Below, in pieces: positions 27,748-50,488 of a stretch of 64,000 nt of DNA (the first letter of the stretch is position 1; the number at the start of each line of letters is the position of its first letter). The notes beneath the pieces are model-generated. The model saw nothing but the letters and a program-made list of their open reading frames with translations. It was not told the DNA's origin and did not search any database. The DNA lies in assembly GCF_000612545.2 (NCBI RefSeq), contig NZ_CP097800.1, positions 1,860,001-1,924,000 on the forward strand. The letters are read 5' to 3'. The DNA is from Streptomyces sp. PCS3-D2. GTDB taxonomy: Bacteria; Actinomycetota; Actinomycetes; Streptomycetales; Streptomycetaceae. The position numbers were made by a program, and so were the translations under genes.

Positions 27748-28614
27748 CTAGTAGGTTCCTCGCCAGGTTGGTGTGGTCTCGTCCGTTATGCGTTTGGCGC
27801 GGTTGTCGATCGAGGCGATGTGAATCATGGCTTCGGAGCTGGCGGTGAGAGTCTCGTAGTCGCGGGCGAGGCGGCGGTGCATCATGATCCAGCCGATACT
27901 CCGCTCTACTACCCAGCGCCTTTTCAAGACCTGAAAGCCGCGGGTTTCAGGGTTCCTGTTGACGACTTCGACATCGATTCCGAGGGTGGCCCCGTGCTCG
28001 ACCACGGATTTCTTGAAGCCGGTGTCGACCCAGCTCTTCGCGATGGTCGGGTAGGCCGCTTTCGCCTGTTCGAGGAGGCGTATTCCCATGGCATTCTCGG
28101 AGAGGCCGGCGCCGGCGACGGTCACGGCGAGGATGAGGCCGATGGTGTCGGTGAGGATGCCGCGCTTCCTGCCCACGATCTTCTTCGCGGCGTCGGTTCC
28201 CTGGCTGGTCAGGGGCACATTGATGGAGGTTTTGACGCTCTGGGTGTCGATGACGGAGGCGGTCGGCTCGGGCTTTCGGCCTTCCTTGACGCGGGCCAGT
28301 CCGGTCAGGTCGTAGTTGATCTGGGCGAAGATTCCCTCGTCGCGCCAGGCCGCGTAGTAGGCGTAGACGGTGCCGTGGCTGTAGTAGGCGTAGACGGTGC
28401 CGTGGCTGGGGAAGTCGTGCGGAAGGTATTTCCAGGGGATTCCCGTGCGGTTGATGTAGAGGAGCGCGTTGAACACATCGCGTAACTCAACCTTGGCCGG
28501 CTGGCCCGTGGGTCTGCGTTCGAGCCGGGCATTCCGCCAGGCCGTCAACGTCGGCTCGATCAGGGCCCACCGGGCGTCGGACAGGTCGCTGGGGTACGGC
28601 TTGCGCTCGCTCAC
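27748..28614 (-). CDS. IS5-family transposase with a 9-residue internal duplication
   Basis: 288 residues from the GTG at 28614 (an in-frame ATG at 28662 would add 16). Insertion-element domain RWALIEPTL...GIPWKYLP is followed by a DDE domain with VIDTQSVKT, SWVDTGFKKS and RRWVVERSIGWI. The segment SHGTVYAYY occurs twice in a row, from a 27-bp tandem duplication at 28354-28407. Family members have one copy in this region, so activity is doubtful. The stop codon overlaps the CTAG where the IS701-type element entered. Confidence 0.85.
   Translation of the reverse strand: MSERKPYPSDLSDARWALIEPTLTAWRNARLERRPTGQPAKVELRDVFNALLYINRTGIPWKYLPHDFPSHGTVYAYYSHGTVYAYYAAWRDEGIFAQINYDLTGLARVKEGRKPEPTASVIDTQSVKTSINVPLTSQGTDAAKKIVGRKRGILTDTIGLILAVTVAGAGLSENAMGIRLLEQAKAAYPTIAKSWVDTGFKKSVVEHGATLGIDVEVVNRNPETRGFQVLKRRWVVERSIGWIMMHRRLARDYETLTASSEAMIHIASIDNRAKRITDETTPTWRGTY
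28354..28407 (-). repeat. 27-bp tandem duplication inside a transposase gene
   Basis: Two exact head-to-tail 27-bp units, 28354-28380 and 28381-28407, in frame, each coding for nine residues around TVYAYY. Confidence 0.95.
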
Positions 28615-28837
28615 GGCACAGCGTGAGCATGGACATGCCGGAAGATGTCGTTCCGCTGGCAACTGGGAGGTTCTGCGGTATCTCTACGCCAGACGGGTTT
28701 CCGGGCAAAGAAGCGGATGAGACGGGCAGGAGGGTTCTCGGTCTGCCGGGTGACATTCCTCCTCTACAGGCTGAACCGCATCAAAGCAGGGCAGTCGCAT
28801 AAGCGGCATAATGCCCTTGACCTGGGTAAACGCCCTC

Positions 28838-31080: not shown

Positions 31081-32487
31081 CTACCCACACGTGATCAGAC
31101 GGCCTGCGTCGAGGGCCGCGGTGCGGTCGGCCAGGGCGTCGGCGGCTACCCGGTCGTGGGTGATGAACACCAGGCTGAGCGATGCCCGGTCGCGGAGCCC
31201 CGTCAGGACGGCGAGGATGGCATCGCGCGTGGCGGGGTCGAGGCCGGAGGTGATCTCGTCGCATATCAGGACCTTGGGCTCTGCCAGCAGTGCCCGGGCC
31301 AGGGCGGCCCGCTGGAGTTCGCCGCCGGACAGTGCACCGGGGCGGCGCAGGGTCAGGTCCTCGGCCAGTCCCAGTTCCTCCAGGGTTCGGGTGGCGGCTT
31401 GGCGTGCGGTGTCCCGGTCGGCTCCGCGGAGTCGGGCCGCCGTGCGGGCGACCTGGTCGATGACCGGCCGGTGTTCGTCGAAGGCTGCCTTGGGGTCCTG
31501 GAACACGTACTGGACGGCGGCCAGTTCGGCGGGGGTGCGGGCGCGGAGGCTGCGCGGCAGCGGGTTCCCGTCGAGCAGGACCGTCCCCTCGTACGCGGAG
31601 TGCAGTCCGGCCAGGCACCGGCCGAGGGTGGTCTTGCCGCTGCCGGAGCGGCCGACCACGGCCAGGCACTCCCCCGGCGCGACCGACACCGTGATGTCGT
31701 GCAGTACCGGAACGGTGCCGCGCGTGGTCCGGTGCCGTGCGGTCAGGTCCCGTACCTCCAGACGCCCTCCGCTCCCGGGTGCGGCAGGGCGGGGCCGGTG
31801 GGCCGCCGGCTGCGCGGGGGTGGGCAGCACCTCGTCCACCGATCCCTGGGCCACAACCCGGCCGGCGCGCAGTATGACCGCGTCGTCGGCCAGCTGTCGT
31901 ACGACGTCCAGGTCGTGGCTCAGCAGGACAATGGCGATGCCTTGCCGGGCGACGTCGGCCAGGGCCTCGACCACGCCCTGTTTGGTGGCCGGGTCCTGGC
32001 CCGTGGTGGGTTCGTCGGCGACGATCACCTTGGCGCCGAGGAGCAGGGCCTGGGCGATGACGACCCGCTGCTGCTGGCCGCCGGAGAGCTGGTGGGGGTA
32101 GCGGCGCAGCACCATCGCGGGGTCGGGCAGCTGGGCCAGGCGCAGGGCGTGCTCGACGCGGTCGTGGATCGCGCGGCGGGTTCCGCCCCGGCGGGCGGCG
32201 ATGTCCCACAGCAGTGCTCCGGCGCGCCGGGCGGGGTTGAGGACGGCGGCGGGGTGCTGGGGTACGTACCCGACGGCGCCACCGCCCGGGGTGCGGATTC
32301 GGCCGTCGATGCGGGCGCCGGGCGGAAACTCGCCGAGCAGGGCGCGTCCGGTGGTGGTCTTGCCACTGCCGGAGGGCCCGATGAGGGCGGTGACGCGGCC
32401 GGCGCGGGCCGTCAGGCTCACTCCGTCGACGAGCGTGCTGCCCGCCACCTCCACGCGCAGGTCCTCCACTTCCGCGACCGGGTTCAT
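31081..32487 (-). CDS. ABC importer ATPase, two nucleotide-binding domains fused
   Basis: 468 residues with two complete ABC domains of the Dpp/Opp/Nik type. Domain 1: Walker A GPSGSGKTT, signature LSGGQQQR, Walker B VIVADEPTT. Domain 2: Walker A GRSGSGKTT, signature LSGGELQR, Walker B VLICDEITS. Fusions of the D and F subunits are common in actinobacteria. Its ATG overlaps the stop of the permease gene before it. It powers uptake of whatever the adjacent binding protein captures, probably a metal-ligand complex made by the upstream genes (inference). Confidence 0.93.
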   Translation of the reverse strand: MNPVAEVEDLRVEVAGSTLVDGVSLTARAGRVTALIGPSGSGKTTTGRALLGEFPPGARIDGRIRTPGGGAVGYVPQHPAAVLNPARRAGALLWDIAARRGGTRRAIHDRVEHALRLAQLPDPAMVLRRYPHQLSGGQQQRVVIAQALLLGAKVIVADEPTTGQDPATKQGVVEALADVARQGIAIVLLSHDLDVVRQLADDAVILRAGRVVAQGSVDEVLPTPAQPAAHRPRPAAPGSGGRLEVRDLTARHRTTRGTVPVLHDITVSVAPGECLAVVGRSGSGKTTLGRCLAGLHSAYEGTVLLDGNPLPRSLRARTPAELAAVQYVFQDPKAAFDEHRPVIDQVARTAARLRGADRDTARQAATRTLEELGLAEDLTLRRPGALSGGELQRAALARALLAEPKVLICDEITSGLDPATRDAILAVLTGLRDRASLSLVFITHDRVAADALADRTAALDAGRLITCG

Positions 32488-33302
32488 CCTCGACCTTCTT
32501 TCCTCGTGGCTTTGGCGGCCGGTGTGTGCAGGGCGGCGTCGAAGAGCAGGTTGGTGCCCATGGACAGAGCGGCGATGAGGAGTGCGGGCACCACCACGGC
32601 CCACGGCTGGAGGAACATTCCCGTGCGGTTGCGGTCCACCATCACCGCCCAGTCGGCGGCATCCGGCTCGACTCCGATCCCGAGGAAGGCGGCCGTGGCC
32701 ACCAGGTAGAGCGCGCCGGTCAGCCGGATTCCGGCGTCGGCGGCCAGGGTGCGGCGCATGGAGCGGGCGACGTAGCCGAAGGCCGTACGCCACCAGGACT
32801 CCCCCTGCATCCGCAGGGCCTCGACGGCGGGCCGGGAGGAGATCTCGGCCGCCGCCGCGTGCACGACCCGCGCGGCCTCGGGTACGGCGGCCAGCCCGAC
32901 CAGGACGGCCAGCCCGGCCGGCCCCGGGGTCAGGGTCGCCGCGACCAGCAGGACCAGCAGGAGGGACGGCACGGCGATCAGTACGTCGAGGGGCCGCATG
33001 AGGGCCTCCTCCAGCCAGGTGCGGTGGGTGAGCGCGGCGGTCAGCCCGAGGGGGACGGCCACCAGATAGGCGAGGCCGGTGGCCGCGAGGGCCACGAGGA
33101 CCACGGAGCGTCCGCCGAGCAGGACCTGCCGCCAGACGTCCCGGCCGCTGAAGTCCGTGCCGAGCCAGTGCCCCGGGCCCGACGCGAAGGAGACCGAGCG
33201 CGGCCCGGCCGGTCCGGCGAGGAGCGGTCCGAGGACGGCCAGCAGCAGGGGGACGGCGATGAGCCCCACGGCGAGCGCGTACCGGGGCAGACGGGGCTTC
33301 AC
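32484..33302 (-). CDS. ABC importer permease 2 (DppC/NikC type)
   Basis: 272 residues with about six membrane helices and the N-terminal GTDFSGRDVWRQVLLGGR region typical of the DppC/NikC branch. The EAA loop is near EALRMQGESWW. GTG start at 33302 overlaps the preceding permease stop; the 3' end overlaps the ATPase start. Partner of the next permease. Confidence 0.92.
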   Translation of the reverse strand: MKPRLPRYALAVGLIAVPLLLAVLGPLLAGPAGPRSVSFASGPGHWLGTDFSGRDVWRQVLLGGRSVVLVALAATGLAYLVAVPLGLTAALTHRTWLEEALMRPLDVLIAVPSLLLVLLVAATLTPGPAGLAVLVGLAAVPEAARVVHAAAAEISSRPAVEALRMQGESWWRTAFGYVARSMRRTLAADAGIRLTGALYLVATAAFLGIGVEPDAADWAVMVDRNRTGMFLQPWAVVVPALLIAALSMGTNLLFDAALHTPAAKATRKEGRG

Positions 33303-34246
33303 GCGACCACCTCCGCACGCGGAGCGAACCGGCGGGCGACGAGGTCGGCCCCGAGATTGGCCAGGACGGTGACCACGCCGAAGACGACGGCCATGCCCTG
33401 GACGACGGGTACGTCCCGGGCGGCGACGGCGTCGATGAGCACGGTCCCCAGGCCCGGGATGACGAAGAGGGCCTCGACGACGATGACCCCGCTCAGCAGC
33501 CAGTCGCAGGTCCGGGCCAGCTGCTGGGCGGCCGGGGCGAGGGCGTTGGGCAGGGCGTGCGCCCAGCGCACGCGCCCGCCGCCGACGCCGTAACGCAGCG
33601 CCTGGGCGACATACGGCGAGGCCATGGCGTCGATCATCCCGGCGCGGACGAGACGGCTGATGGTGCACACGGGCCGGGAGATGAGGACGAGGACGGGCAG
33701 GACCAGTACGGCCGGGTCGGTGAGCGGGTCCGCGCCGACGGCGGTGGGCGGCAGCCAGCCCAGCCACAGTCCGAACACGGTGGCCAGCAGCACGCCGAGG
33801 GCGAATTCGGGTACGGAGTGCACCGCCAGGGTCAGCGCGCTGAGGGTGCGGTCCAGTGGGCCGCCCTCGCGGCGGGCGCAGAGCACGCCGAGCCCGGCCG
33901 ACAGCGGGAGCAGGACGACGAGGGTGGCGGACGCGAGCAGCACCGTGGGCCCGAGGCCGCCGGCCAGGTAGCCGGAGACGGGCCGTCCGCTGACCAGGGA
34001 GGTGCCGAGGTCGCCGTGGAGAAGTCCGGCGGCCCAGTCCAGGAAGCGTTCGGCGGTGGGCCGGTCCAGGTCCAGGGCCGCGCGGATACGGGCGATGCGC
34101 TCGGGGTCGGGCTGGTCGCCGGCCAGGGCGACGGCCGCGTCCCCGGGCAGGGCCTCGGTGAGCGCGAAGACGAACAGGACGACGGCCGCCGTCTGCCCCA
34201 GGCCGAGGAGCAGGCGGCGGCCGACCCAGTGGAGGTGGAGGGTCAC
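33299..34246 (-). CDS. ABC importer permease 1 (DppB/NikB type)
   Basis: 315 residues with a short cytoplasmic start, a first helix, the LPGDAAVALAGDQPDPERI loop typical of DppB/NikB, and five further helices. EAA loop near YVAQALRYGVG. GTG start overlaps the binding-protein stop by four bases. Confidence 0.92.
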   Translation of the reverse strand: MTLHLHWVGRRLLLGLGQTAAVVLFVFALTEALPGDAAVALAGDQPDPERIARIRAALDLDRPTAERFLDWAAGLLHGDLGTSLVSGRPVSGYLAGGLGPTVLLASATLVVLLPLSAGLGVLCARREGGPLDRTLSALTLAVHSVPEFALGVLLATVFGLWLGWLPPTAVGADPLTDPAVLVLPVLVLISRPVCTISRLVRAGMIDAMASPYVAQALRYGVGGGRVRWAHALPNALAPAAQQLARTCDWLLSGVIVVEALFVIPGLGTVLIDAVAARDVPVVQGMAVVFGVVTVLANLGADLVARRFAPRAEVVA

Positions 34247-35823
34247 GCGATCCAGATCTTGTCGAAGCGGGCCCAGTCGAGGGTGTTGGCGGGGGCCTTC
34301 GCGTCGACGCCGTGCACGGTGGGCGCGGTGGCGACGATCCAGTCGGCGAAGCCCCAGATCAGGAAGCCGCCTTCGTCGTACAGGCGGCGCTGCATGCGCT
34401 CGTAGAGGGCGGCCCGCTCCTTCTCGTCACGGGTGGACTGGGCCTGCTGGTACAGGTCGTCGAAGTCCTTCTGCTTCCACTTGGTGGCGTTGGTGGTGGA
34501 GCCGGTGAGCAGGCGCTGCGAGATGTGGGACTCGATGGGCATGGACCCGGACCGGTAGGAGGCGAAGGTCCCGTTGTCGAGGATGTCCTTCCAGTACGTG
34601 TCCTTGTTGCCGACCTTGACCTCGACGGTGACCCCGGCCTTTGCCGCCTGCTCCTTGAAGATCCCGGCGGCCTCGACAAAGCCGGTGGCGGCGGGAGCGG
34701 TGTCGAGGGTGACCTTGAGGTTCTCGGCGCCGGCCTCCTTGAGGAGGGCGCGGGCCCGCTCCAGGTCCTGGGTGCGCTGGGGCAGGCCGGAGGCGTAGTA
34801 CCGGTACCCCTTGCCGAAGAGGTCGTTGCCGACCTCGCCGGCGCCGGAGAGGGCGCCGTCGACGAGTTCCTTGCGGTCGGCGATGAGGAAGAAGGCCTGG
34901 CGGACCCGCGGGTCGTTGAACGGAGGCCGGTCGGTCTTCATCACGAAGCCCTGCATGGAGCTGCCGGGCAGCCGGATGACCTCGATCTTCCCCTTGCCCT
35001 CGTGGGTGCGGGCGGTGGCGGGGCTGAGCTCGTGGGCGTACTGGACCTGCCCGCCGAGCAGTGCGCTGACGCGGGCCGACTCCTCGGAGGCGACGACGAA
35101 TTCGACCTGGTCGAGGTGGGGGGCGCCCTCCCAGTAGGCGTCGTTGCGCTTGACGACGAGGGACTTGCCGGGGGTGAAGGCGGCGAAGGTGAACGGGCCG
35201 GAGCCGACGGGCTTGTCGAAGGAGGTGGTGTCCTTGGGGATGATGTACGCACCGAACGCGGCGAGGACGTTGGGGAATTCGGCGTAGGGGCGCTTCAGCT
35301 TGAACTCGACGGTGGACGCGTCGAGGGCGCGGCTGGCCGCGAGGTCGATGGGCTCCAGGGAGGCCTTGGCGCGGAAGGTGCCCTTGGGGTCGGCGATGCG
35401 GCGGTAGCTGTAGAGGACGTCCTCGGCGGTGACCGGGCGGCCGTCGTGGAAGGCGGCCTTACGGAGGGTGATCTTCCAGGTGTCGAGGCTCTCGTTGGGC
35501 TCCCAGCGCTCGGCGAGGCGCGGTACGGGGGCGAGGTCGGCGCCGAAGTCGGCGAGCTTGTCGTAGAGGGCCTTGGCGCGGGCGGCGTCGACGAACAGGT
35601 TGGCGGCGTGCGGGTCGAGGGTCTCGCCCGCGCCTCCGCCGGGGAAGGCGGCGCGCAGCGTGCCGCCGCGCTGGGGGGTGCCGGCCGCTGCGGCGTTCTT
35701 GGGGTCGGCGGTCTTGCCGGTGTCGCCGGCGCAGCCGGCGGTGAGGGCGAGGGCGGCGGCGGTGGCCGTGGCGGTGGCGAGGAGGAATCCTCTGCGGGCG
35801 AAGCCGGAGCGGGGGTTGTTCAC
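34243..35823 (-). CDS. Substrate-binding lipoprotein, family 5 (peptide/nickel type)
   Basis: 526 residues. The N-terminus has a twin-Arg-like RRGFLLA, a hydrophobic core and the lipobox LTAGC, so it is a lipoprotein, probably Tat-exported. The family-5 fold is seen in ETLDPH, VPRLAERWEP, PVTAEDVLYSYRR and PVGSGPFTFAAF. GTG at 35823 has GGAG ten bases upstream. Family 5 proteins bind peptides, nickel or metal-chelate complexes. The operon context suggests a small zinc chelate (inference). Confidence 0.92.
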   Translation of the reverse strand: MNNPRSGFARRGFLLATATATAAALALTAGCAGDTGKTADPKNAAAAGTPQRGGTLRAAFPGGGAGETLDPHAANLFVDAARAKALYDKLADFGADLAPVPRLAERWEPNESLDTWKITLRKAAFHDGRPVTAEDVLYSYRRIADPKGTFRAKASLEPIDLAASRALDASTVEFKLKRPYAEFPNVLAAFGAYIIPKDTTSFDKPVGSGPFTFAAFTPGKSLVVKRNDAYWEGAPHLDQVEFVVASEESARVSALLGGQVQYAHELSPATARTHEGKGKIEVIRLPGSSMQGFVMKTDRPPFNDPRVRQAFFLIADRKELVDGALSGAGEVGNDLFGKGYRYYASGLPQRTQDLERARALLKEAGAENLKVTLDTAPAATGFVEAAGIFKEQAAKAGVTVEVKVGNKDTYWKDILDNGTFASYRSGSMPIESHISQRLLTGSTTNATKWKQKDFDDLYQQAQSTRDEKERAALYERMQRRLYDEGGFLIWGFADWIVATAPTVHGVDAKAPANTLDWARFDKIWIA

Positions 35824-35860
35824 GGTGTGGTGTCTCCGTTTGCTGCTGGGGAGGGTGGTT

Positions 35861-36655
35861 CTAGTGGTGGAGCCGGGCGACGAGGTGCAGGCGGTCGGAA
35901 CTCGTGGTCCCGGACGGGGAGTCGCCTTCGCGCCACGGCGGTTCGGTGCGCGGGCCGGGCCGGTCGTACAGGTCGAGGACCTCGAAGCCGGCGGTGGTGA
36001 GGAAGTACCGCAGCTCCTGGGGGAACAGCAGCCGCCAGGCGGACTGCTGCTCGGGCTGCTCCTTGGACGGGCTGCCGTCGTCGGCGCTCCAGGTGCGGTG
36101 GCGGCGCAGGAGTTGGGCGCCGTGATCGATCCACAGGGTGGTGTGGGAGGTATGGATGGTGCCGCGCCAGTCGAAGGAGGCGGTGCGCGGGCCGTCGAGG
36201 AGCTCGGTGTTGCCGAGGAAAAAGGCGCCGTTGCGCATCTCCGCGACGAGCAGGCCACCGGGGGCGAGGTGGGCGCGGCAGCGGTCGAGGAACGCCGTCA
36301 GGTCGTCGTTGGTGTGGCAGTAGAGGAGGGCGCTGTCCAGGCAGATGACCGCGTCGAAGGTGGCCCCGAGGTCGAAGTCCCGCATGTCGGCGCGGTGGTA
36401 GTCGGGGCCTGGGTGGGCGCGGCGGGCGTGGGCGAGCATGGTCTCGGCGGTGTCGATGCCGGTGACTCGGCGTCCGGCGTGGCGGTGCAGCCAGGCCGCG
36501 TCCCGGCCGGTGCCGCAGCCGACGTCCAGGACGCGGGGTCCCGCGCCGTGACGGCGCAGGGTGTCCTCGGCCCAACGGGCGGCGAGGTGGTCGGGGTCCG
36601 GGAAGCGCTCTTCGTAGAGCTCGGGATGGTCGGTGAGAAGGTTGCCGTTGCTCAT
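35861..36655 (-). CDS. Class I SAM-dependent methyltransferase
   Basis: 264 residues. Motif I is VLDVGCGTGRDAAWLH; motif II acidic residue in VTGIDTAETM; later DAVICLDSALLY and LAPGGLLVAEMRNG. Substrate unknown. Its ATG overlaps the stop of the MFS gene, so it belongs to the same unit. It may methylate the putative chelator or an intermediate. Confidence 0.88.
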   Translation of the reverse strand: MSNGNLLTDHPELYEERFPDPDHLAARWAEDTLRRHGAGPRVLDVGCGTGRDAAWLHRHAGRRVTGIDTAETMLAHARRAHPGPDYHRADMRDFDLGATFDAVICLDSALLYCHTNDDLTAFLDRCRAHLAPGGLLVAEMRNGAFFLGNTELLDGPRTASFDWRGTIHTSHTTLWIDHGAQLLRRHRTWSADDGSPSKEQPEQQSAWRLLFPQELRYFLTTAGFEVLDLYDRPGPRTEPPWREGDSPSGTTSSDRLHLVARLHH

Positions 36656-38001
36656 CGGGTCTCGCTTAGGGAGCGGGGGTCGCGGTTCGGAGCGGCGGAT
36701 GCCGCGTCCGCACATGGGTCCGGGTCCGGGTCCCGGTCCGGGTCCCGGGTGTCCGGGACGGTGGGTGCCTCCGCGGTGACGGGAGCGTCGGGCAGGAACC
36801 GGCGCCGGTGCAGCCGCGCAACAGCAGCCGCCGAGACGAAGCCGAGGCCCGTGCAGCAGGCGTAAGGAAACCATGCCGGGCCGGTGCGGGTGGCGGTGTC
36901 CATGGCCCACCCGACCCCCGCCCCGGCGCCCGCGGCGGCTACTCCGGACACGGCATAGAAGAGGCCGTAGAACGTGCCGGTCAGCTCCCCGCGGCCGAAC
37001 GCGGGAATCAGCTCCATCACGAACGGCCCGGCGGTCATCAGCCCGAGGTGCAGCAGCAGCGCCCCGGCCAGCACCGGCAGCAGCCGCCCCGGGTGCTCCC
37101 CCGCCGCGCCCGCCACCAGCATGGGCGGTACGAAACCAAGCGCGCTGACGGCCAGCCCGGCGGCGATCCAGCGGCCGCGGCCGCCGCCCCGTGCGGACAG
37201 CCGGTGGGTCAGGCGCAGCTGGAACAGCAGGTTGGCAAGCGTCCCGGCGGCGAAGAGCAGCCCGACGGCGCCCGCCCAGCCGGTGGCCTGGCGCGCGGCG
37301 TGCGGGAGCAGCAGGTAGAGCTGGCTCTCCATGCCGTACATGCCGACCATGGCCAGGGCGAAGGCGACGAAGCGGCGGTTGCCCGCCACCTCCCGCCAGT
37401 CGCCGAGGACGGACCCGGCCGGACGCGGCACCGCACGAGCGGGCAGCACGACGGCCTGCGCAACGGTGAGCACCGCGAACACGCCCGCCGCTGTGAGCGC
37501 CGCCACCCGGAAACCGCCGAACAGCAGCAGGCTGCCCAGCAGCGGTCCGAGCAGCGCCCCGGCCGTGGCGAACACGTTGAACAGCGCGAACGCCTCGGCC
37601 TTGCGGTCGCCGGACTCCTGGGCGACGTACGTCCGTACGGCCGGGTTGAACAGGGCGCCGGCGAGCCCGCTCAGCACCGAGGCGGCGATCAGTACGGGCA
37701 GGGCGTCGCCGAACGCGAACAGCGCGAAGCCGAGAGTACGCAGTCCACAGCCCGCGATGATCACGCCGCGGGCGCCGAGGCGGTCGGCCGCCGAGCCCCC
37801 GATCAGGAACATGCCCTGCTGGCTGAGGTTGCGCAGGCCCAGGACCAGGCCGACCAGCGCCGCCGACATGCCGAGGTCGTCGGTGAGGTGGGTGGCCAGG
37901 TACGGGATGAGCACGTAGAAGCCGGTGTTGACGCCGAGCTGGTTGATCAGCAGGAGCCGCACGGCCGGCGGGAAGCCGCGCACCGCGGCGAGGGTTCTCA
38001 C
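36652..38001 (-). CDS. MFS transporter, probable exporter
   Basis: 449 residues, 11-12 hydrophobic segments. Motif A-like loop GGSAADRLGARG after helix 2. A hydrophilic Asp/Pro-rich tail carries (DP)n runs. The GTG start overlaps the epimerase stop. In metallophore operons an MFS protein beside an ABC importer usually exports the free ligand; that role is inferred. Confidence 0.9.
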   Translation of the reverse strand: MRTLAAVRGFPPAVRLLLINQLGVNTGFYVLIPYLATHLTDDLGMSAALVGLVLGLRNLSQQGMFLIGGSAADRLGARGVIIAGCGLRTLGFALFAFGDALPVLIAASVLSGLAGALFNPAVRTYVAQESGDRKAEAFALFNVFATAGALLGPLLGSLLLFGGFRVAALTAAGVFAVLTVAQAVVLPARAVPRPAGSVLGDWREVAGNRRFVAFALAMVGMYGMESQLYLLLPHAARQATGWAGAVGLLFAAGTLANLLFQLRLTHRLSARGGGRGRWIAAGLAVSALGFVPPMLVAGAAGEHPGRLLPVLAGALLLHLGLMTAGPFVMELIPAFGRGELTGTFYGLFYAVSGVAAAGAGAGVGWAMDTATRTGPAWFPYACCTGLGFVSAAAVARLHRRRFLPDAPVTAEAPTVPDTRDPDRDPDPDPCADAASAAPNRDPRSLSETR

Positions 38002-39062
38002 CGTGCGGCCCCTGCGGGTATGTGGGCCCGGCGCAGCACTCCCAGGCCGCCGCGCGGGGCGGGGCGTACGGTGCCGTCGGCGCCTCCGATCCCGGTCCAC
38101 GGGTCGTCGGCGAGGAGCAGGTGCCCGTCGAGGTCGACCCAGCGGGCCCGGTCGACGAGGTGGACGGCGGGGGCGATGCCGAGCGAACTGGCCGTCAGGC
38201 AGCCGAGCATGAGGTCGGTGCCGCTGCCTGCCAGCGCGGCGTGGATGCGCAGCGCGGCCCGTACGCCGCCGCACTTGGCGAGCTTGACGTTGACCCCGTG
38301 GACCCGGCCGGCGAGGGCCACGGCGTCCTCGTAGGAAACGGCGTCCTCGTCGGCGATCACCGGAATCGGGGAAGCGATCGCGACCCGGGCCAGCGCATCG
38401 GGCCGGCCGGCCGCGATCGGCTGCTCCACCGCCGTGACGCCGAGGGCGGCGAAGCGCGGCAGCAGTGCGTGGGCCTGGTCCTCGGTCCAGGCGCCGTTGG
38501 GGTCGAGCAGCAGATCCGCGGCGGGCGCCCCTTCGCGGACGGCCTCGACCCGGGCAAGGTCCTCGGCTGGGTCGGGGGACCCCGCCTTGACCTTCAGGAC
38601 GGTGAACCCGGCCACGGCGAGCCGACTCGCCTGGGCGGCAGCGGAGACAGGCGGGACGATACCAATGGTGCGGGCCGTGGCCGCCGACGGAGGCAGAGGA
38701 CTGCCGAGGAGTTGGTGAGCGGGTTCGCCGGCCCGTTTGCCGGTGAGGTCCAGTACGGCGGCCTCGACCGCGGCAAGGACTCCCGCGGGCAGGTCGGCGC
38801 CGAGGGAGCCCGCAGGTGCCAGCTCGGCCCAGGCGGTCTCGGGGTCCGGCAGGCGCTCGAACGCCGGGCGTACGGCGCTCAGGTAGCGCAGGATGCGCTG
38901 GGTGGGCAGCCCGAGATAGTCGCTGCTGACAGCCTCCCCCCAACCGCGCAGCCCGCCGTGCTCCAGACAGACCCAGACGGCGTCGCGGCGGGCCATGACG
39001 GAGCGGGAGATCCGCAGCGGTTCCGCCAGTTCCAGCGAGGCGGTGTGCCAGGTGAGTCTCAT
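37998..39062 (-). CDS. Dipeptide epimerase-like enolase-superfamily enzyme
   Basis: 354 residues of the muconate-lactonising/dipeptide epimerase subgroup. Active-site series: KxK base in FTVLKVKAG, metal ligands in LLLDPNGAW, VEQPI and VIADEDAVS, second base Lys in VNVKLAKCGG. The N-terminal capping domain has RISRSVMARRD. Known members flip the alpha-carbon of one residue in dipeptides (for example L-Ala-D/L-Glu); o-succinylbenzoate synthase is a related alternative. It lies between ligand-forming enzymes and a transporter, so an epimerised dipeptide product is suggested. Confidence 0.85.
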   Translation of the reverse strand: MRLTWHTASLELAEPLRISRSVMARRDAVWVCLEHGGLRGWGEAVSSDYLGLPTQRILRYLSAVRPAFERLPDPETAWAELAPAGSLGADLPAGVLAAVEAAVLDLTGKRAGEPAHQLLGSPLPPSAATARTIGIVPPVSAAAQASRLAVAGFTVLKVKAGSPDPAEDLARVEAVREGAPAADLLLDPNGAWTEDQAHALLPRFAALGVTAVEQPIAAGRPDALARVAIASPIPVIADEDAVSYEDAVALAGRVHGVNVKLAKCGGVRAALRIHAALAGSGTDLMLGCLTASSLGIAPAVHLVDRARWVDLDGHLLLADDPWTGIGGADGTVRPAPRGGLGVLRRAHIPAGAAR

Positions 39063-40189
39063 ACGGCACCTCCGGGGGCCGGAACGCGGGTGGCAGGGGT
39101 TCCGCCACGGGGCGCGGCGACGGGATCGAGGACGGTGCGGCAGCGGACCCAGCCAAACGCCTCAGCCGCACGCGGGTGCGGGATCTCCAGCGGGCGGGTG
39201 GCCAGGGCAGCGGCGGTCAGTCCGTGGGCGTGGCAGAAGTCGTCGTCGTACACGGTGCCGAGGTAGCGGTGCGGGCCGTCGGGGAAGACGGTCGCGACGA
39301 CGGCGCCGGGCTCGGCCCGAGCCGCCCACGCGGAGACCAGGGCGACGGCGCCGGTGCTCCAGCCGCCGCTGACGAAGCTGCCACGGGCAAGCCGGCGGCA
39401 GGCGTCGACGGCCTCGGCGGGGCCCACCCAGTGCACCTCGTCGAACGCTCCGTGGCGGACGTTGCCGGGGTGGATGCTGCTGCCGAGTCCGCGCATCAGG
39501 CGCGGCCGGGCGGGCTGGCCGAAGATGGCGGAGCCGACGGAGTCGACGCCCACCACCTTCAGCCGGGGCCAGCGACGGCGCAGCGGGCCGACCAGTCCGG
39601 CGCTGTGACCGCCGGTTCCCACGCTGCACACCAGGACGTCCAAGTGGTCGAGCTGGCCGATCAGTTCTGCGGCCATCGAGCGGTAACCCGCGGGATTGTC
39701 GGGGTTGTTGTACTGGTCAGGCCAGTAGGCACCGTCAGTCCGCGCCAGGACCTCGCGCAGCCGGGCGATACGGGCGGCCTGCCATCCGCCCTTGTCCGCG
39801 GGTCGGTCGACGAGCTCCAGGCGGGCGCCGTAGGTACGCAGCAGCTGCCGCATGGACGGTTCGAGTTCGGTGTCGCCGACGAGGACGACGGGATGACCGA
39901 GCGCCTGTCCGGCGAAGGCCAGCCCGACGCCCATCGTCCCGGAGGTGGACTCCACGACCGGCGCGCCGGGGCGCAGCTCACCGCGCCGTCGGGCACCGGC
40001 CAGCATGGACATCGCCGCGCGGGCCTTCATCCCGCCGGCGCTGAGGCATTCGAGCTTGGCCCAGAACCCGGGATGGGGGTGGGGAAGGTCGGTGCGGATA
40101 CGGGCGAGCGGGGTGCGCCCCAGCAGGGGCAGCAGATCGGGGTTGGCGGCAGCGGCGTCGGACCGGTGCATGGGCGGAGCCAGGGTCAC
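39059..40189 (-). CDS. Cysteine-synthase-like PLP enzyme (SbnA type)
   Basis: 376 residues, fold type II. It begins near LLPLLGRTPLARI. PLP lysine is in LSAGGMKARAAMS; the substrate loop is ESTSGTMGVGLA; the phosphate-binding loop is GTGGHSAG. The family includes cysteine synthase, cystathionine beta-synthase and SbnA, which makes a diaminopropionate precursor for staphyloferrin B. No SbnB homologue is in the window, so the exact product (2,3-diaminopropionate or another beta-substituted alanine) is open. GTG start overlaps the DUF364 gene's stop. Confidence 0.85.
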   Translation of the reverse strand: MTLAPPMHRSDAAAANPDLLPLLGRTPLARIRTDLPHPHPGFWAKLECLSAGGMKARAAMSMLAGARRRGELRPGAPVVESTSGTMGVGLAFAGQALGHPVVLVGDTELEPSMRQLLRTYGARLELVDRPADKGGWQAARIARLREVLARTDGAYWPDQYNNPDNPAGYRSMAAELIGQLDHLDVLVCSVGTGGHSAGLVGPLRRRWPRLKVVGVDSVGSAIFGQPARPRLMRGLGSSIHPGNVRHGAFDEVHWVGPAEAVDACRRLARGSFVSGGWSTGAVALVSAWAARAEPGAVVATVFPDGPHRYLGTVYDDDFCHAHGLTAAALATRPLEIPHPRAAEAFGWVRCRTVLDPVAAPRGGTPATRVPAPGGAV

Positions 40190-41067
40190 GGACAACCTCC
40201 GTAGCGGTGGATGACCCCGGGGCCGCCGTCGAGCCAGAAGAACGGGTACGGCTCGGCGGACACGGCGCTCACCCCGGCTCCGAGGAAGCGGGGCAGGACG
40301 GCGCTTCCGGTCTGGGCGAACATCACAAGGGGCTTGCCCGTCCGGGCGGCGTGGTCGAGCAGGCTCTGGAAGGTGCCGTTGCCGAGGGTCATGCCGGAGG
40401 CGAGGACGGCGCCGCAACGCTCGAGCTGAGCGGCCGTATCGGTCAGGACGGGCTCGCCCCACTCGGTGGTGCCGCCCTTGAGGTCGCACGGCAGGTAGTC
40501 GAGGCCCCGCGCATGCAGCTGCTCCAGGAGCGAGTTCACCACTCCGACCACCAGGACCGGGCGGCGCTCGTAGGGCCCCGGGGCCTCATCGGGCAGGAGG
40601 TCGACGACGGCACGGGCCCGGGCCTTGGAACGGCTCAGGGAACTGCCGGCAGGCAGCGGATACGGGTGGGCGCCGTTGCCGGGCGTGTGCGGGCGTACGT
40701 GAGCCAGGTAGGCATCGAGGGCCGCGATCCGCACCGGCAGGAGCGAATGGCCGAGCAGGTCGGCGACGGTGGCGCCCACGCAGTCGTCGAGGGTGCCCCC
40801 GGGCAGCGCCCCGGGCTCCACGGCGCAGGACCCGACGGCCGCGTCGAGGCGCAGGCTCAGCACTTCGTTGCGGTAACCGCTGCTGCGCCCGTGGTGCCGG
40901 ACGGCCTGGGCTGTGGTGAACGCGAGCGAGATCCGCTCGTGGGCGGGGTCGGGGCCGTACGCCCCGTCACGGACGGCATCGAGAAGCTGGTCAACGGTCC
41001 GGATCACGGGGTCTCCGTGCCCGGACCCTTCTGTGCCGCGCGTGTGCAGGGCAGGCAGGGACGTCAC
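40186..41067 (-). CDS. DUF4213/DUF364 putative metal-chelation protein
   Basis: 293 residues. An N-terminal domain (about 30-130) with SLAFTTAQAVRHH and GTLDDCVGATVADLLGHSLL is followed by a Rossmann-like DUF364 domain with RPVLVVGVVNSLLEQL, ASGMTLGNGTFQSLL and VMFAQTGSAVLPRFL. Pfam names DUF364 a putative heavy-metal chelation domain; no biochemical role is settled. ATG overlaps the ATP-grasp stop. Its presence in this operon supports a metal-linked pathway. Confidence 0.82.
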   Translation of the reverse strand: MTSLPALHTRGTEGSGHGDPVIRTVDQLLDAVRDGAYGPDPAHERISLAFTTAQAVRHHGRSSGYRNEVLSLRLDAAVGSCAVEPGALPGGTLDDCVGATVADLLGHSLLPVRIAALDAYLAHVRPHTPGNGAHPYPLPAGSSLSRSKARARAVVDLLPDEAPGPYERRPVLVVGVVNSLLEQLHARGLDYLPCDLKGGTTEWGEPVLTDTAAQLERCGAVLASGMTLGNGTFQSLLDHAARTGKPLVMFAQTGSAVLPRFLGAGVSAVSAEPYPFFWLDGGPGVIHRYGGCP

Positions 41068-42338
41068 GCGGGCACCGCCGCGGAGGGTTCGTAACAGGGG
41101 CGCAGGCCGGCCAGCAGCCGCTCGGCAGCAGCGCGGGCGCCGCCGCCCTCGGTGTCGGCCGTCATGACATGCCCGAGGTATTCGTTGTTGCTGGTGGCGG
41201 CCCGCACGGTGCGGCCGGGCTCTGCGAGGGTGAGCTCCAGCACCTCGGGCCGGGCGCGGACGTCTTCCTCACCCTCGATGCCGACCAGGGTGCCGGTGGT
41301 GTCGGTCAGCAGGAACGCGATGGCGGCGCTGCGCACTCCGGTCTCTCGCGGTGCGAGGTCCGGCACGTGGCCGAGGGCCACGTCCACGCAGGCGGTCGCC
41401 AGGTCGACGCCCGTGACGTGGCGGACCAGTTCGGTGATGCGGTTGCCGGCCGGGCGCGGGTTGACCTCCACCAGCCGGGGGCCGTCGGGCGTCAGTTTGA
41501 TCTCGGTGTGGCAGACCACCTGATCCAGGCCCAGTGCCTTGACCGCCCGCAGCGCGGTCTCGGCGGCCTCCGACGCCAGGGCCTTGTCGAGACCGGCCGG
41601 GAACATGTGGCCGGTCTCGATGAAGGCGGGCGCCCCACCGATGCTCTTGTCGGTGACGCCCACGACATGGGTGGCACCGCCGAAGGATACGGTCTCCACG
41701 CTGACTTCGGGCCCGTGCAGCAGCTCTTCGAGGAGGATGACGGGCGTACGGTCCTGGCCACGGGCGTTGACCGGGAACTCGGCGAGGGCCTGGCAGGCGA
41801 GTTCCAGTTCGCGCTCGTCGCGCACCGCGCGGACCAGCATGCCCGCACACAGGTCCACCGGCTTCACGACGAGCGGGTAGCCGATCTCACGAGCCGCTGC
41901 CGCCGCCTCCCCCGCGCCCTCGCAGAGCGCGAACCGAGGCCCGGGCACTCCCGCTTCAGCGAGCACACGGCGCGTCAGGTCCTTCCGGCACGCCGCCTCG
42001 ACGGCCTCCGGAGTAGGCCCGGGCAGGCCGAGCCGCCGGGCGGTGTGCGCGACGGCCGGCAGGTAGTAGTCGCACGAGGAGACCACCCCGTCGAAGCTGA
42101 GTACGGCATGCAGCCCCTCGAGCCGCTCAAGCAGAGCGCCCGTGTCGTTGGTGTCCGCCGCGATGACGTTGCGGGCCGTGAGCAGCGGGTGCGGCCCCTC
42201 GCCTGCCTGGTTCGAGCGCAGGTAGTGGTGCAGGTCGCGGGTGACGAAGGTGAACTCGTGCCCGTCTTCGCGGATCGCCCTGGGCAGCAGCCTGCTCATC
42301 GACCCCACCCAGCTTTCGATCACCAGCAGATGTCCCAC
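41064..42338 (-). CDS. ATP-grasp ligase
   Basis: 424 residues of the carboxylate-amine ligase type. N-terminal domain MGHLLVIESWVGSM; ATP-binding part with YPLVVKPVDLCAG; catalytic core with CHTEIKLTPDGPRLVEVNPRPAG, including the Mg-binding Glu and Asn. Such enzymes join two amino acids or an acid and an amine at the cost of ATP, as in dapdiamide-type or L-amino acid ligase pathways. First gene of a leftward run of ten overlapping or tightly packed genes, 50 bp behind a Zur-like box. Confidence 0.88.
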   Translation of the reverse strand: MGHLLVIESWVGSMSRLLPRAIREDGHEFTFVTRDLHHYLRSNQAGEGPHPLLTARNVIAADTNDTGALLERLEGLHAVLSFDGVVSSCDYYLPAVAHTARRLGLPGPTPEAVEAACRKDLTRRVLAEAGVPGPRFALCEGAGEAAAAAREIGYPLVVKPVDLCAGMLVRAVRDERELELACQALAEFPVNARGQDRTPVILLEELLHGPEVSVETVSFGGATHVVGVTDKSIGGAPAFIETGHMFPAGLDKALASEAAETALRAVKALGLDQVVCHTEIKLTPDGPRLVEVNPRPAGNRITELVRHVTGVDLATACVDVALGHVPDLAPRETGVRSAAIAFLLTDTTGTLVGIEGEEDVRARPEVLELTLAEPGRTVRAATSNNEYLGHVMTADTEGGGARAAAERLLAGLRPCYEPSAAVPA

Positions 42339-42387
42339 CGGAACTTCCTCCCAGACTGCCGTCGGCTCTGTGCGACGCAGACGTTAT

Positions 42388-42402
42388 CTGAAATCGTTTT
42401 CA
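42388..42402. promoter_or_regulatory. Zur-like box in front of the ATP-grasp operon
   Basis: Reads TGAAAACGATTTCAG on the minus strand, 11 of 15 matches to the actinobacterial Zur palindrome TGAAAATGATTTTCA. It lies in the AT-rich 124-bp gap between the divergent ATP-grasp and GNAT genes and could control both. It is the weakest-conserved of the set but sits in the right place. Confidence 0.6.
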
Positions 42403-42462: not shown

Positions 42463-43092
42463 ATGACAGAGCTGACGCGAGATCAGAGGGTCGGGCCCTA
42501 CACGGTGCGGCACGCGAGAAGCGAGGACGTGCCCGGTGCCCGGAGCGTCATGCTGGACACCTTCTACCGGGAATTCGACTACGGGTACGTGCCCGCCTGG
42601 CACCCCGACGTCGTCGACCTCGACGGCACATATCTGCGGCATCCGCGGCACACCCTCGTCGTGGCCGTAGGCGCCGACGGCGAAGTGGTCGGCACCACCG
42701 CACTCAACTCACGCGGCCCCGCCCACCCTCCGCACCCGCTCAGCCTCGTCGAGCGATACCCCTCCGGACGGACCGCCCAGCTGCTCCGCGTGTACGTACG
42801 CCCCGAGCACCGGCGCCACGGGCTGGCCCGCGCCATGGTGCACACCGCCTGCGCGTTCGCCGCGTCCGTACCCGGCTACGAGCGCATCTACCTGCACACC
42901 AACGTCGACATCCCCGGCGCGGAAGGCTTCTGGCGGAGCATCGCCACCGAGGTCTTCGACGCCCGCACCACCGGCGAGCACGGCGGATACGGGACCGTCC
43001 ACTTCGAGATGCCGCTCCCGGTGCCGGAAACCGGTCCCGGGCCGGTGACGGGACCGACCGGACCCGACCGCGAGCCGGCCGGCGTCATGTGA
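42463..43092 (+). CDS. GNAT-family acetyltransferase
   Basis: 209 residues. Acetyl-CoA binding region LRVYVRPEHRRHGLARAMV matches the Q/RxxGxG/A motif of GNAT enzymes; YERIYLHTN and GAEGFWRSIATEVF follow. A Pro/Gly-rich tail ends the protein. ATG at 42463 with GAGGCGGAG upstream. Divergent from the ATP-grasp operon across the Zur-like box, so it may be co-regulated. Substrate unknown. Confidence 0.85.
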   Translation: MTELTRDQRVGPYTVRHARSEDVPGARSVMLDTFYREFDYGYVPAWHPDVVDLDGTYLRHPRHTLVVAVGADGEVVGTTALNSRGPAHPPHPLSLVERYPSGRTAQLLRVYVRPEHRRHGLARAMVHTACAFAASVPGYERIYLHTNVDIPGAEGFWRSIATEVFDARTTGEHGGYGTVHFEMPLPVPETGPGPVTGPTGPDREPAGVM

Positions 43093-45271
43093 CCCGTCGC
43101 TCCTCCAACGGCGCCGGCCTGAGCGTGTCCTCCTCCACCCGGGGCAGGTGCGGAGTGTGGTTGACCAGGCGGGCGGAGTTGCCGACGACCGCGATGCTGC
43201 TGGTGTTGTGCAGCAGCGCCGCCAGCACCGGATTGATGGAGCCGCCCGCGCCCGCGACCAGCCCGAGCAGGTTGACGCCGATGGCGAGCCCGTAGTTCTG
43301 CCGTACGACGCGCAGGGTGTGCCGGCTGAGCTCGACCACGGCCGCGACCTGGCGCAGGTCGTTGCCCGCGAGTGCGATGTCCGCGGTCTCCAGGGCCACA
43401 TGGGAGGAGTGCTCGCCCATCGTGATGCCGACGTCCGCCAGAGCCAGCGCGGGGGCGTCGTTCGTGCCGTCGCCCACCATCGCCACGATGTGGCCCTCGG
43501 CCTGGAGGTCGCGGATCAGCTGGAGCTTGGCCTCCGGCAGGGCGTGGGCGTGGACTTCGGTGATGCCGAGGGCGTCCGCCACGACCTGGGCGGTTTCCGG
43601 GGCGTCACCGGTGAGCAGGACCAGCCTCGAGACGCCCAGGTCACGCAGTTGCCGGACGACGATGTCGGCGCCCGCCCGGACGGCGTCGGAGACCCCGAGC
43701 AGGCCGATGAACTCCTCGTCCTGGGCCAGGCAGATGACGGTCTCGCCACCGCGGCGCAGGTGGTCGGTCCAGCCCTGGGCGTCCTCGGTGAGCTCGATGC
43801 CGTGCCGGCGCAGCAGGGCGGGGCTGCCCACCAGGAGGCGAGTGCCGTCGAGTTCGGCGCGCATGCCCATGCCGAGTACGACCTCGCAGGCCTGGTGGAG
43901 GGGGACGTGCAGGTGCTGCTCCGCGGTGTGGGCGACGATGGCCTGGGCGAGCGGGTGGCGGGCGTGGAGCTCGCCGGAGGCGGCCAGGCTGAGCACCTCG
44001 TCGGCGCCGAAGCGCTCGCTGAGGGTGACGACGCTGGTGACGAGGGGCTTGCCGAAGGTGAGGGTGCCGGTCTTGTCGAAGACGACGGCGGTGACCCGGC
44101 CCACACCTTCGAGGTGGGTGCCGCCCTTGATGAGGGTGCCGCGGCGGGCTCCGTTGCCGATGGCGGCGCTGATGGCGGTCGGGGTGGCCAGGCCCGCGGC
44201 ACACGGGCAGGCGATCAGCAGCATCGTCATCGCCCGGCGCGCGTCGCGGGTGACGACGTACGTCAGGGCGGCGAGCGCGAAGGAGACCGGCACGAAGCGC
44301 TGGGTGAAGCGGGTGGCCACCGTCTGGATCGGGGCCCGGTCGGTCTGGGCCTCCTCGACCCGGGTGATGATGCGGCCGACCGTGGTGTCCCGGCCCACGG
44401 AGTCGGCGCGCACGGTCAACGAGCCGGAGGTGACGATGGTGCCGGCGTAGACGTGGGAACCCGCCCGGGCGTAGACCGGCAGGGCCTCGCCGGTGACCGC
44501 GGCCTGGTCGACCAGGGCCTCGCCGCCGGTCACGTGCCCGTCGACGGGGATCCGGTGGTGCTCGTACACGGCGACGACATCACCGGGTGCCAGCTCCTCC
44601 AGCGGGACCTCCACCTCCACGCCCTCCTCCCGGACCAGCCAGACCCGCTCCTCGCCGATGGTGAGCAGGTCCTCGATGGCGCGGCGGGTGCGGCGCAGGG
44701 TGAGGGTCTGGAGGAACTCGCCGATGTTGAGCAGCCACAGCACGGTCAGGGCGACCACGTTCTCGCGCAACACCAGCGAGATCACGGTCGCGGCGGTGAC
44801 CAGCGTGTCGGTACCGGGATGACCCCGGCCGCGCAGCGTGCGCAGGGCTCCGCGGAAGAACGGCAGCCCCGTGAAGACGGTGACGACGCCCAGGAATCCG
44901 GAGGAGCCGATACCGATGCGGGGCCGGGCCAGCAGGCGGCGCACGGCCACGAACGCGAGGACCGCCCCGCCGACCACGAGCCGGGCGATCTCACCGGTGG
45001 AGGAGTCCGGGGCCGACCTGGTCGCCTTCGCCGGGGCCGATGCGGGCGGCGCCTCCTCCAGCGCGCGGACCAGCGCATCCACATCCAGATCGCCGGGCTC
45101 CATCCAGATCACGACACTGCCCGTGCGCGGGAAGATCCGCAGGGCACGGAAGCCGCCAAGATGGGTGAGGCGGTCGTCGACGAGTCCGGCGCAGCCGGGA
45201 CGGTCCCGCAGCCACGGAACGGTCAGCCGGGCACGCCCCGTGGCGACCGACCGCACGAGTACCGCGGACAT
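43085..45271 (-). CDS. ctpC: CtpC-like P1B-type metal ATPase
   Basis: 728 residues. N-terminal soluble region without CxxC sites, transmembrane helices, phosphatase motif TGEALP, the metal-binding CPC in LLIACPCAAGLATPTAIS, phosphorylation site DKTGTLT, and GDGTNDAPALALADVGI. It closely resembles mycobacterial CtpC, linked to Zn/Mn efflux. It starts 2 bp after the PacL-like gene and its 3' end overlaps the GNAT gene's end on the other strand. Confidence 0.9.
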   Translation of the reverse strand: MSAVLVRSVATGRARLTVPWLRDRPGCAGLVDDRLTHLGGFRALRIFPRTGSVVIWMEPGDLDVDALVRALEEAPPASAPAKATRSAPDSSTGEIARLVVGGAVLAFVAVRRLLARPRIGIGSSGFLGVVTVFTGLPFFRGALRTLRGRGHPGTDTLVTAATVISLVLRENVVALTVLWLLNIGEFLQTLTLRRTRRAIEDLLTIGEERVWLVREEGVEVEVPLEELAPGDVVAVYEHHRIPVDGHVTGGEALVDQAAVTGEALPVYARAGSHVYAGTIVTSGSLTVRADSVGRDTTVGRIITRVEEAQTDRAPIQTVATRFTQRFVPVSFALAALTYVVTRDARRAMTMLLIACPCAAGLATPTAISAAIGNGARRGTLIKGGTHLEGVGRVTAVVFDKTGTLTFGKPLVTSVVTLSERFGADEVLSLAASGELHARHPLAQAIVAHTAEQHLHVPLHQACEVVLGMGMRAELDGTRLLVGSPALLRRHGIELTEDAQGWTDHLRRGGETVICLAQDEEFIGLLGVSDAVRAGADIVVRQLRDLGVSRLVLLTGDAPETAQVVADALGITEVHAHALPEAKLQLIRDLQAEGHIVAMVGDGTNDAPALALADVGITMGEHSSHVALETADIALAGNDLRQVAAVVELSRHTLRVVRQNYGLAIGVNLLGLVAGAGGSINPVLAALLHNTSSIAVVGNSARLVNHTPHLPRVEEDTLRPAPLEERRVT

Positions 45272-45273
45272 GA

Positions 45274-45573
45274 TCAGTGCTCGTGGCCGTGGTCGTCGTG
45301 GTCGACCTTGACGGCCGAGGGCGGCGGGACCTCCTCGCCGAGCGAGGTACGGGCCTCCGCGAGCATGTCCCCGGCCTTGAGCCGGGCCTCCTCGGCGGCC
45401 GAGGACAGCCACCGGCTCGCCACGATGCCGCCCGCGAGCCCGCTCACCAGCGCCTTGCGCGCGGCGGGCTGGGCATCGGGGAGCTTCTTGATGATCAGTG
45501 CACCCACCACGCCGGACACCGCGTAGTGGGCCAGCTTGCCGGCGGCGGCGCCGACGATGGCGAGGGGATGCAT
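45274..45573 (-). CDS. PacL-like (DUF1490) metal-ATPase partner
   Basis: 99 residues. Hydrophobic N-terminal segment (HYAVSGVVGALIIKKL), a helical middle (ASRWLSSAAEEARLKAGDMLAEA) and a metal-binding tail VDHDDHGHEH. Same layout as mycobacterial PacL1, a membrane chaperone that stabilises CtpC and binds zinc through a C-terminal Asp/His motif. Strong ribosome site GGAAGGAGG before the ATG. Two bases separate it from the ATPase gene, as in the mycobacterial operon. Confidence 0.88.
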   Translation of the reverse strand: MHPLAIVGAAAGKLAHYAVSGVVGALIIKKLPDAQPAARKALVSGLAGGIVASRWLSSAAEEARLKAGDMLAEARTSLGEEVPPPSAVKVDHDDHGHEH

Positions 45574-48397: not shown

Positions 48398-48427
48398 ACC
48401 GTCCTCCCTGCGCGAGGGAAACCGAAA

Positions 48428-48442
48428 TGGCAATCACTTGGA
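48428..48442. promoter_or_regulatory. Zur-like box in front of znuA
   Basis: TCCAAGTGATTGCCA on the minus strand matches 10 of 15 positions of TGAAAATGATTTTCA, with the conserved TGATT core. It lies in an AT-richer patch upstream of znuA. Confidence 0.55.
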
Positions 48443-48511: not shown

Positions 48512-48748
48512 TCAGCGACCGGCGTACGGCAGCAGGGCCATCTCACGCGCGTTCTTGATGGCGGCGGCGAGGGCCCGCTGCTGCTGGGCGGTCACTCGGG
48601 TGACGCGGCGGCTGCGGATCTTCCCGCGGTCGGAGATGAACTTCCGCAGCAGGTCGGTGTCCTTGTAGTCGATGTAGGTGATCCTGGCCGCGTCGAGCGG
48701 GTTGGGCTTGGACTTGGCGGGCTTGTGAGGAACGGGGCGTCGGGCCAT
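48512..48748 (-). CDS. rpsR: Ribosomal protein S18, zinc-free paralogue
   Basis: 78 residues, [19 protein letters not shown], then [22 protein letters not shown] and [22 protein letters not shown]. It lacks the Cys residues that bind zinc in the housekeeping form. Such paralogues replace the zinc protein during starvation and are Zur-repressed in actinobacteria. ATG at 48748 with GGAGAAG upstream; last gene of the leftward run from L33. Confidence 0.93.
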
Positions 48749-48820
48749 GGCGGCTTCTCCTTGCACGGAACGTTTCGGTGACGGCCTCGGCAGGCCGTGA
48801 ACAGGTGGTGGGGACGGGGG

Positions 48821-50217: not shown

Positions 50218-50257
50218 GGCAGGAACCTTTCGGTGGTGGAGCGGGGTTGCGGGGCGG

Positions 50258-50422: not shown

Positions 50423-50434
50423 GGCGCTAGCATA

Positions 50435-50449: not shown

Positions 50450-50488
50450 TTACCAACATGCCCACCCACTGAGAGAGGCGGCAGATCC

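Follow-up and report, generated by a model that had tools for sequence, protein, structure and literature searches.

Known zincophore pathways are few. For Streptomyces, the literature consulted here names coelibactin, described as a Zur-repressed, putative zincophore of Streptomyces coelicolor (PMC5472717) and as the product of a nonribosomal peptide synthetase (NRPS; PMC3430247). Ethylenediaminedisuccinic acid (EDDS), from Amycolatopsis japonicum, is described as NRPS-free and Zur-controlled (PMC9252823, PMC4993170), and ethylenediaminesuccinic acid hydroxyarginine (EDHA) as iron-responsive, with the four-gene operon AesA-D (PMC10702961). Opine zincophore clusters combine an MFS or EamA exporter with an Opp-type or FecCD importer (PMC7438024), and among the metallophore types of antiSMASH 7 are one for aminopolycarboxylic acids and one for opine-like compounds (PMC10320115). 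Here we describe a ten-gene operon of Streptomyces sp. PCS3-D2, located in a 64-kb stretch of contig NZ_CP097800.1 (the window; coordinates count from its first letter). The open-licence literature, judged on titles, starts of abstracts and passages, contained no recognizable description of it. The operon probably encodes a Zur-repressed, NRPS-free zincophore system with a dipeptide-like aminopolycarboxylate product. Its sequence gives good support to the reading as a metallophore operon under Zur control; the dipeptide-like aminopolycarboxylate is our best guess at the product. We infer Zur binding, the substrates, the order of the steps, the product and the metal from sequence.

Operon structure and the Zur-like box

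The ten minus-strand genes span 31081-42338. At eight of the nine junctions the neighboring genes share 4 bases; only the methyltransferase and lipoprotein genes are separated, by 37 bases, so that a single transcript is likely. Pfam and NCBIfam assignments and the junction coordinates bear out the leftward, overlapping gene order listed in an earlier sequence-only reading of the window. The Zur-like box which that reading placed in front of the operon has also held up: its position is exact, and it is backed by matrix score, by the promoters of relatives and by a genome-wide pattern. It lies 49 bp upstream of the chosen ATP-grasp start and 60 bp upstream of the chosen start of a divergent GNAT gene.

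The box was scored with a symmetric matrix built from 30 upstream regions of rpmB2-rpsN2-type genes in genomes of the same genus, retrieved with the S14 protein of the window; none came from operons of the present type. A site was present in 29 of these regions (L084 had none and did not enter the matrix), and in L109 and L110 it lay at a different distance. At 16.6 bits, the operon box is the third site in the window, below those at 50435 (26.3 bits) and 51068 (18.6 bits) and above the next at 11.3 bits. The high score at 50435 is not independent, since one matrix region (L081) is the window's own. Zur sites were not taken from regions around the window's ZnuA as well, since close copies of that protein are scarce: 8 of 61 genomes, its own among them, have one at 59% identity or above.

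Relatives were compared in two overlapping, non-independent sets: 80 named loci, which are the best 80 of at least 573 confirmed relatives and favor the window's own type, and 19 loci forming group A with the window (shared members include L042/L141 and L052/L183). A gene was scored as present at 40% identity or more over at least 30% of its length, a rule by which divergent replacements would be missed. All ten genes occur in the same order in 68 of the 80 named loci, and all ten are present in 16 of the 19 group A loci (exceptions L042, L044, and L047). The 12 incomplete named loci comprise four that run into a contig end (L152, L171, L209, L219), four with only part of the set (L141, L142, L146, L173), two otherwise full loci in which a methyltransferase match was not detected (L145, which has an extra ATPase match, and L148), one without an MFS match (L157), and one without matches past the lipoprotein (L208). 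The partial loci suggest that ATP-grasp ligase, DUF364 protein, SbnA-like enzyme, and epimerase form the core.

The box is conserved with the genes. Every group A promoter tried (20 of 20, window included) has a site of at least 12.2 bits, as do, at a threshold of 12 bits, 76 of the 78 scored promoters of named relatives (L173 and L193 were unscored); the remaining two reach 11.0 and 11.9 bits. The 1.55 Mb of named loci hold 106 sites of at least 12 bits, 78 of them in the 76 operon promoters. The 28 sites elsewhere give a background of 0.004 expected per 220 bp; several of these exceed 20 bits and may be genuine Zur sites of neighboring genes.

A search of the whole genome (7.6 Mb) with a sequence pattern, allowing one mismatch, returned six sites, and the reversed control pattern returned none. 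Two sites lie in the ribosomal-protein region of the window, one in front of this operon, one in front of a second DUF364 cluster (1947064), one within an open frame (1067383), and one (5120764) directly before a ZnuA gene that is followed by ZnuC, ZnuB, and Fur-family genes (ZnuB and ZnuC named by reading). Since the pattern was derived from operon relatives and ribosomal sites, only the znuA and second-cluster matches are independent. The promoter thus contains, in silico, a 7-1-7 box as found in the Zur regulon, and predicted Zur control of the operon is well supported.

Enzymes, transporters, and a proposed route

The ligase has as its nearest solved relative the L-amino acid ligase 3vot (E 6.4e-29), with BacD next, and its LAL C-terminal domain (PF18603) scores 59.0 bits against a cut-off of 29.4. 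Six probed residues are invariant in all 80 sequences, window included. The protein combines the ATP-grasp core, the LAL domain, and the conserved ATP/Mg residues of an L-amino acid ligase; the roles of these residues are as we take them to be. Such a ligase with tailoring enzymes resembles bacilysin-type dipeptide routes, BacD being the second solved relative. An alternative is that the operon answers zinc starvation by making an antimetabolite or signal of the dipeptide type; the MFS protein would then serve self-protection, and the ABC system would import unrelated peptides. The divergent acetyltransferase, which adjoins the operon in 29 of the 80 relatives, would suit this alternative. We consider it unlikely, given that 68 of 80 loci include a dedicated importer in the gene run, and that the group B clusters described below pair the same DUF364/SbnA-like duo with Fec-type or Nik-type importers.

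The nearest solved relatives of the epimerase are MR/MLE proteins, L-Ala-D/L-Glu epimerases among them. Its KxK motif, D-E-D triad, opposite Lys, and DxD pair, together the motif set of dipeptide epimerases, are each kept by 76 or 77 of the 77 sequences, window included; NCBIfam equivalog cut-offs are unreached. The DxD pair we take to mark a dipeptide substrate through its amine. A dipeptide epimerase together with an Opp/Dpp-like importer is typical of murein peptide recycling, and both are present here, but a Zur-controlled system for taking up and recycling peptides, or dipeptides of the cell wall, was rejected as highly improbable. The ligase builds dipeptides, the SbnA-like enzyme and the exporter do not suit recycling, the ten proteins include no peptidase (Pfam), and the gene set travels with the box. 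The sequence-only reading had named a cell-wall setting of homologous operons as the case that would count against a chelator; the constancy of genes (68 of 80 loci) and box (76 of 78 promoters) speaks against that setting.

The pyridoxal phosphate (PLP) enzyme, of the PALP family, matches the SbnA family best in NCBIfam (248.8 bits, below the cut-off of 350), and its nearest solved relative is SbnA itself (5d84, E 5e-44). The PLP lysine Lys55, Arg140, and Tyr160 are present in 78 of 78 sequences, window included, and the active site was read with the roles that we presume for the corresponding SbnA residues. A short route had been suggested, in which an unusual amino acid is made, ligated to a partner, inverted at one stereocenter, and methylated. 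Conserved active sites and the expected solved relatives strengthen its ligase, epimerase, and SbnA-like steps; the methyltransferase was undetected in the otherwise full loci L145 and L148.

The importer proteins score best against nickel/Opp models (NCBIfam), and the lipoprotein scores 66.5 bits against the CntA model (cut-off 800). Export of a ligand and import of its metal complex had also been proposed; an MFS exporter with an Opp-type importer was found, matching the exporter and importer types described for opine zincophore clusters (PMC7438024), and zinc-ligand as the cargo we infer. The nickel-type scores would also agree with a metallophore serving chiefly nickel, cobalt, copper, or iron, an alternative to which the other metal systems reported beside DUF364 genes elsewhere (PMC2954201) and the iron response of EDHA, a related idea (PMC10702961), lend some weight. 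It is nonetheless improbable, as the box fits a matrix from ribosomal-protein promoters of a type known to be under Zur control and recurs at znuA-zur.

For the favored zincophore, the following mechanism is proposed. When zinc is replete, Zur bound at the box would keep the operon off, and in zinc shortage all ten proteins would be produced at once. An amino acid would be joined to an O-activated serine, probably O-phosphoserine, by the SbnA-like enzyme, the DUF364 protein acting at an unnamed step. As the operon contains no SbnB-like or lyase gene, the substituent is expected to stay on the product, which would then be an aminopolycarboxylate of the N-substituted diaminopropionate type. Its coupling to a second amino acid would be the task of the ATP-grasp ligase; the epimerase would invert one stereocenter of the resulting dipeptide, and the methyltransferase, where present, would cap it. 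The MFS protein would export the product, and the zinc complex would return through the ABC importer, made up of the family-5 lipoprotein, both permeases, and the double ATPase.

Table 1. Genes and promoter element of the operon, with window coordinates
Feature	Coordinates	Strand	Basis
ATP-grasp ligase with LAL_C2 domain, dipeptide-forming type	41064..42338	-	Pfam, NCBIfam, PDB match
DUF364 (PF04016) protein	40186..41067	-	Pfam; profile match to PDB 3npg
SbnA-like PLP enzyme, beta-replacement type	39059..40189	-	Pfam PALP, NCBIfam, PDB 5d84
Dipeptide-epimerase-like enzyme, MR/MLE family	37998..39062	-	Pfam, NCBIfam, solved relatives
MFS transporter (MFS_1), taken as exporter	36652..38001	-	Pfam, NCBIfam
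S-adenosylmethionine-dependent methyltransferase	35861..36655	-	Pfam
Family-5 solute-binding lipoprotein (SBP_bac_5)	34243..35823	-	Pfam, NCBIfam
ABC permease (BPD; Opp/Nik type)	33299..34246	-	Pfam, NCBIfam
ABC permease (BPD; Opp/Nik type)	32484..33302	-	Pfam, NCBIfam
Fused double ABC ATPase, NikD+NikE-like	31081..32487	-	Pfam, NCBIfam
Zur-like box before the operon, TGAAAACGATTTCAG on the minus strand	42388..42402	-	Matrix, conservation, genome pattern scan
Divergent GNAT acetyltransferase across the box, accessory	42463..43092	+	Annotation; neighbor in 29/80 relatives

DUF364, a second gene family, and the genomic setting

The window DUF364 protein scores 24.9 bits against Pfam PF04016 (cut-off 23.0). 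As a single sequence it has no match in the PDB at E 1; a profile of the DUF364 proteins of group A and of a second family, group B, matches the DUF364 structure 3npg (E 2.8e-6). Motifs common to both groups are C-D, W, G-M-T-L-x-N-G, A-Q-x-G-S-A, and A-E-P. Of 393 sampled genomes of the genus, 172 have a DUF364 relative, and 99 have the window type (best E of 1e-108 or lower; next match 1e-61); most of the other DUF364 proteins listed from the genus show 40-46% identity, and a few are weaker matches. Across the phylum, DUF364 was found in 7 of 396 sampled genomes, six of them within the genus, and by a profile search in 5 of 296. Named holders outside Streptomyces include Kitasatospora, Embleya, and Wenjunlia. 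ATP-grasp relatives at E of 1e-30 or lower occur in 14 of 296 phylum-sample genomes, three of the 70-100% identity type and eleven only 30-43% identical. A distant DUF364 gene of the same phylum (L080:355-4688, on a contig of 33% G+C) is flanked by two ATP-grasp-like frames and a decarboxylase-like PLP enzyme frame, all named from reading.

Group B is represented in the same genome by the second DUF364 cluster, about 45 kb from the operon and 23 kb outside the window (~1947.1-1953.1 kb; L041:6565-12565). It encodes a periplasmic binding protein, FecCD, an ATPase, DUF364, a GHMP kinase, and an SbnA-like enzyme, preceded by a Zur-type site of 14.5 bits. DUF364 and SbnA-like matches are found in all 20 group B loci fetched; their Pfam domains were checked in L041, L062, and one L061 protein only. 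In four loci (L062, L063, L066, L079) the importer is of the Nik type (43-54% identical); of the remaining 16, 15 have a ZnuC/Fec-type ATPase match. The other family-5 lipoproteins found in the window's genome are at most 35% identical to that of the operon, which suggests a specific relationship between the Nik-type importers of the two groups. Somewhere in the 20-kb stretch of 19 of the 20 loci there is a site of at least 14 bits, with about 0.2 expected per 20 kb (from 17 sites of at least 14 bits outside promoters in 1.55 Mb), and by coordinate check the site heads the gene run in L041, L062, L067, and L070.

The same core pair occurs with the same type of box and with different importers, by which DUF364 and the SbnA-like enzyme are read as the makers of a metallophore; among the comparisons made here, this is the strongest reason for such a reading. 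The evidence is evenly balanced on a broader proposal, that the pair is the core of an undescribed family of NRPS-free zinc metallophores in the Streptomycetaceae with two Zur-controlled branches. One would be a dipeptide branch with ligase, epimerase, and methyltransferase, and the other a kinase or methyltransferase branch with Fec-type or Nik-type uptake. If so, this genome would hold both branches, and DUF364 would serve as a marker for zincophore mining.

A hunt for EDHA-like loci turned up a further module in five loci of the genus (L267-L271), for which EDHA production is not claimed. These have SbnA-like and ATP-grasp matches (38-42% and 36-40% identical to the window proteins) and an argininosuccinate-lyase-like match, Pfam-checked in L270 only. 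A GHMP kinase was confirmed in three, that of L270 being 46% identical to the group B kinase, and neighboring frames read as NRPS. Only two weak matrix sites were found (12.5 and 14.7 bits). The genes are perhaps a diamino acid module, which differs from the operon in its lyase-like gene and NRPS-like neighbors; the ten operon proteins include no lyase.

ZnuBCA-type genes (45667-48433) and ribosomal proteins (~48512-51397; S14 by Pfam, S18, L31B, L28, and L32 by reading translations) lie near the operon. They had been described as lying next door; both are near, but the GNAT gene, a P-type ATPase (43085-45250), and a DUF1490 gene (45274-45573) intervene. A pairing like that of the last two belongs to mycobacterial zinc efflux. 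The window ZnuA (47492-48433) is of a less common type, and the better ZnuA match in the genome adjoins a Fur-family gene. A transposase-like frame, named by reading, lies just downstream of the operon end (27748-28662).

Several observations count against a Zur-controlled zincophore operon. By eye, the box differs at four positions from tGaNNatSatNNtCa, the published Zur motif of S. coelicolor (PMC5472717), and of the boxes of the 78 relatives, 52 outscore it, 6 score the same, and 20 score lower. A scan for the palindrome TGAAAATNATTTTCA with up to three mismatches found two sites in the window and missed the operon box, which is why the matrix was built. The box being imperfect when taken singly, the case for it rests on conservation and the matrix. 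Group B locus L079 has no matrix site in its stretch. Eight queries from the nearby zinc, metal-chaperone, and ribosomal genes gave any match in only 9 of the 80 loci, within the fetched stretch; this neighborhood is not conserved, and the zinc link rests on the box. The operon proteins score under NCBIfam curated cut-offs, by which membership of named subfamilies is not proven, and a Nik-type importer would also suit nickel or peptides. The position of SbnA Ser185 is Gly in the window enzyme, so that substrates identical to those of SbnA should not be assumed.

Comparison with described metallophores

SbnA-like chemistry is presumably common to EDDS, EDHA, and the present operon. That the operon is a variant gene set for a known aminopolycarboxylate, such as EDDS or EDHA, is very unlikely, despite the SbnA-like and ATP-grasp enzymes and a Zur box that recalls the Zur control of EDDS (PMC9252823, PMC4993170): as we read it, the structure of EDDS gives a dipeptide epimerase no role, and no lyase or SbnB-like domain was found in the ten proteins (Pfam). 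The operon resembles the EDDS system in lacking an NRPS and in Zur control, here predicted from the box, and is set apart from both EDDS and EDHA, by their descriptions rather than by Aes sequences, in its dipeptide ligase, dipeptide epimerase, and DUF364 protein. The staphyloferrin B type combines SbnA, SbnB, and NRPS-independent siderophore (NIS) synthetases. Of these the window has the SbnA-like enzyme only, itself below cut-off, and Pfam and NCBIfam gave no SbnB-type or IucA/IucC domain in the ten proteins.

Coelibactin is from the same genus and Zur-repressed, but is an NRPS product, whereas Pfam found no NRPS among the ten operon proteins. DUF364 proteins Dhaf4260 and 3npg share family membership with the window protein, which differs in being the constant partner of an SbnA-like enzyme. 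A role in siderophores or metal chelation had been proposed from other genomes in a paper on a DUF364 structure (PMC2954201). The operon would offer a compact route, amenable to test in laboratory strains, and a metabolic setting for the orphan family DUF364. If the proposal is true, two zinc-scavenging chemistries would stand side by side in one soil bacterium. The opine zincophores (staphylopine, pseudopaline, and bacillopaline) have an MFS-type exporter with an Opp-type or FecCD importer, as here (PMC7438024); nicotianamine-synthase-like (CntL) and opine dehydrogenase (CntM) families are absent from the ten proteins by Pfam and NCBIfam. By analogy, and without opine genes, the operon would function much as the opine zincophores and EDDS do.

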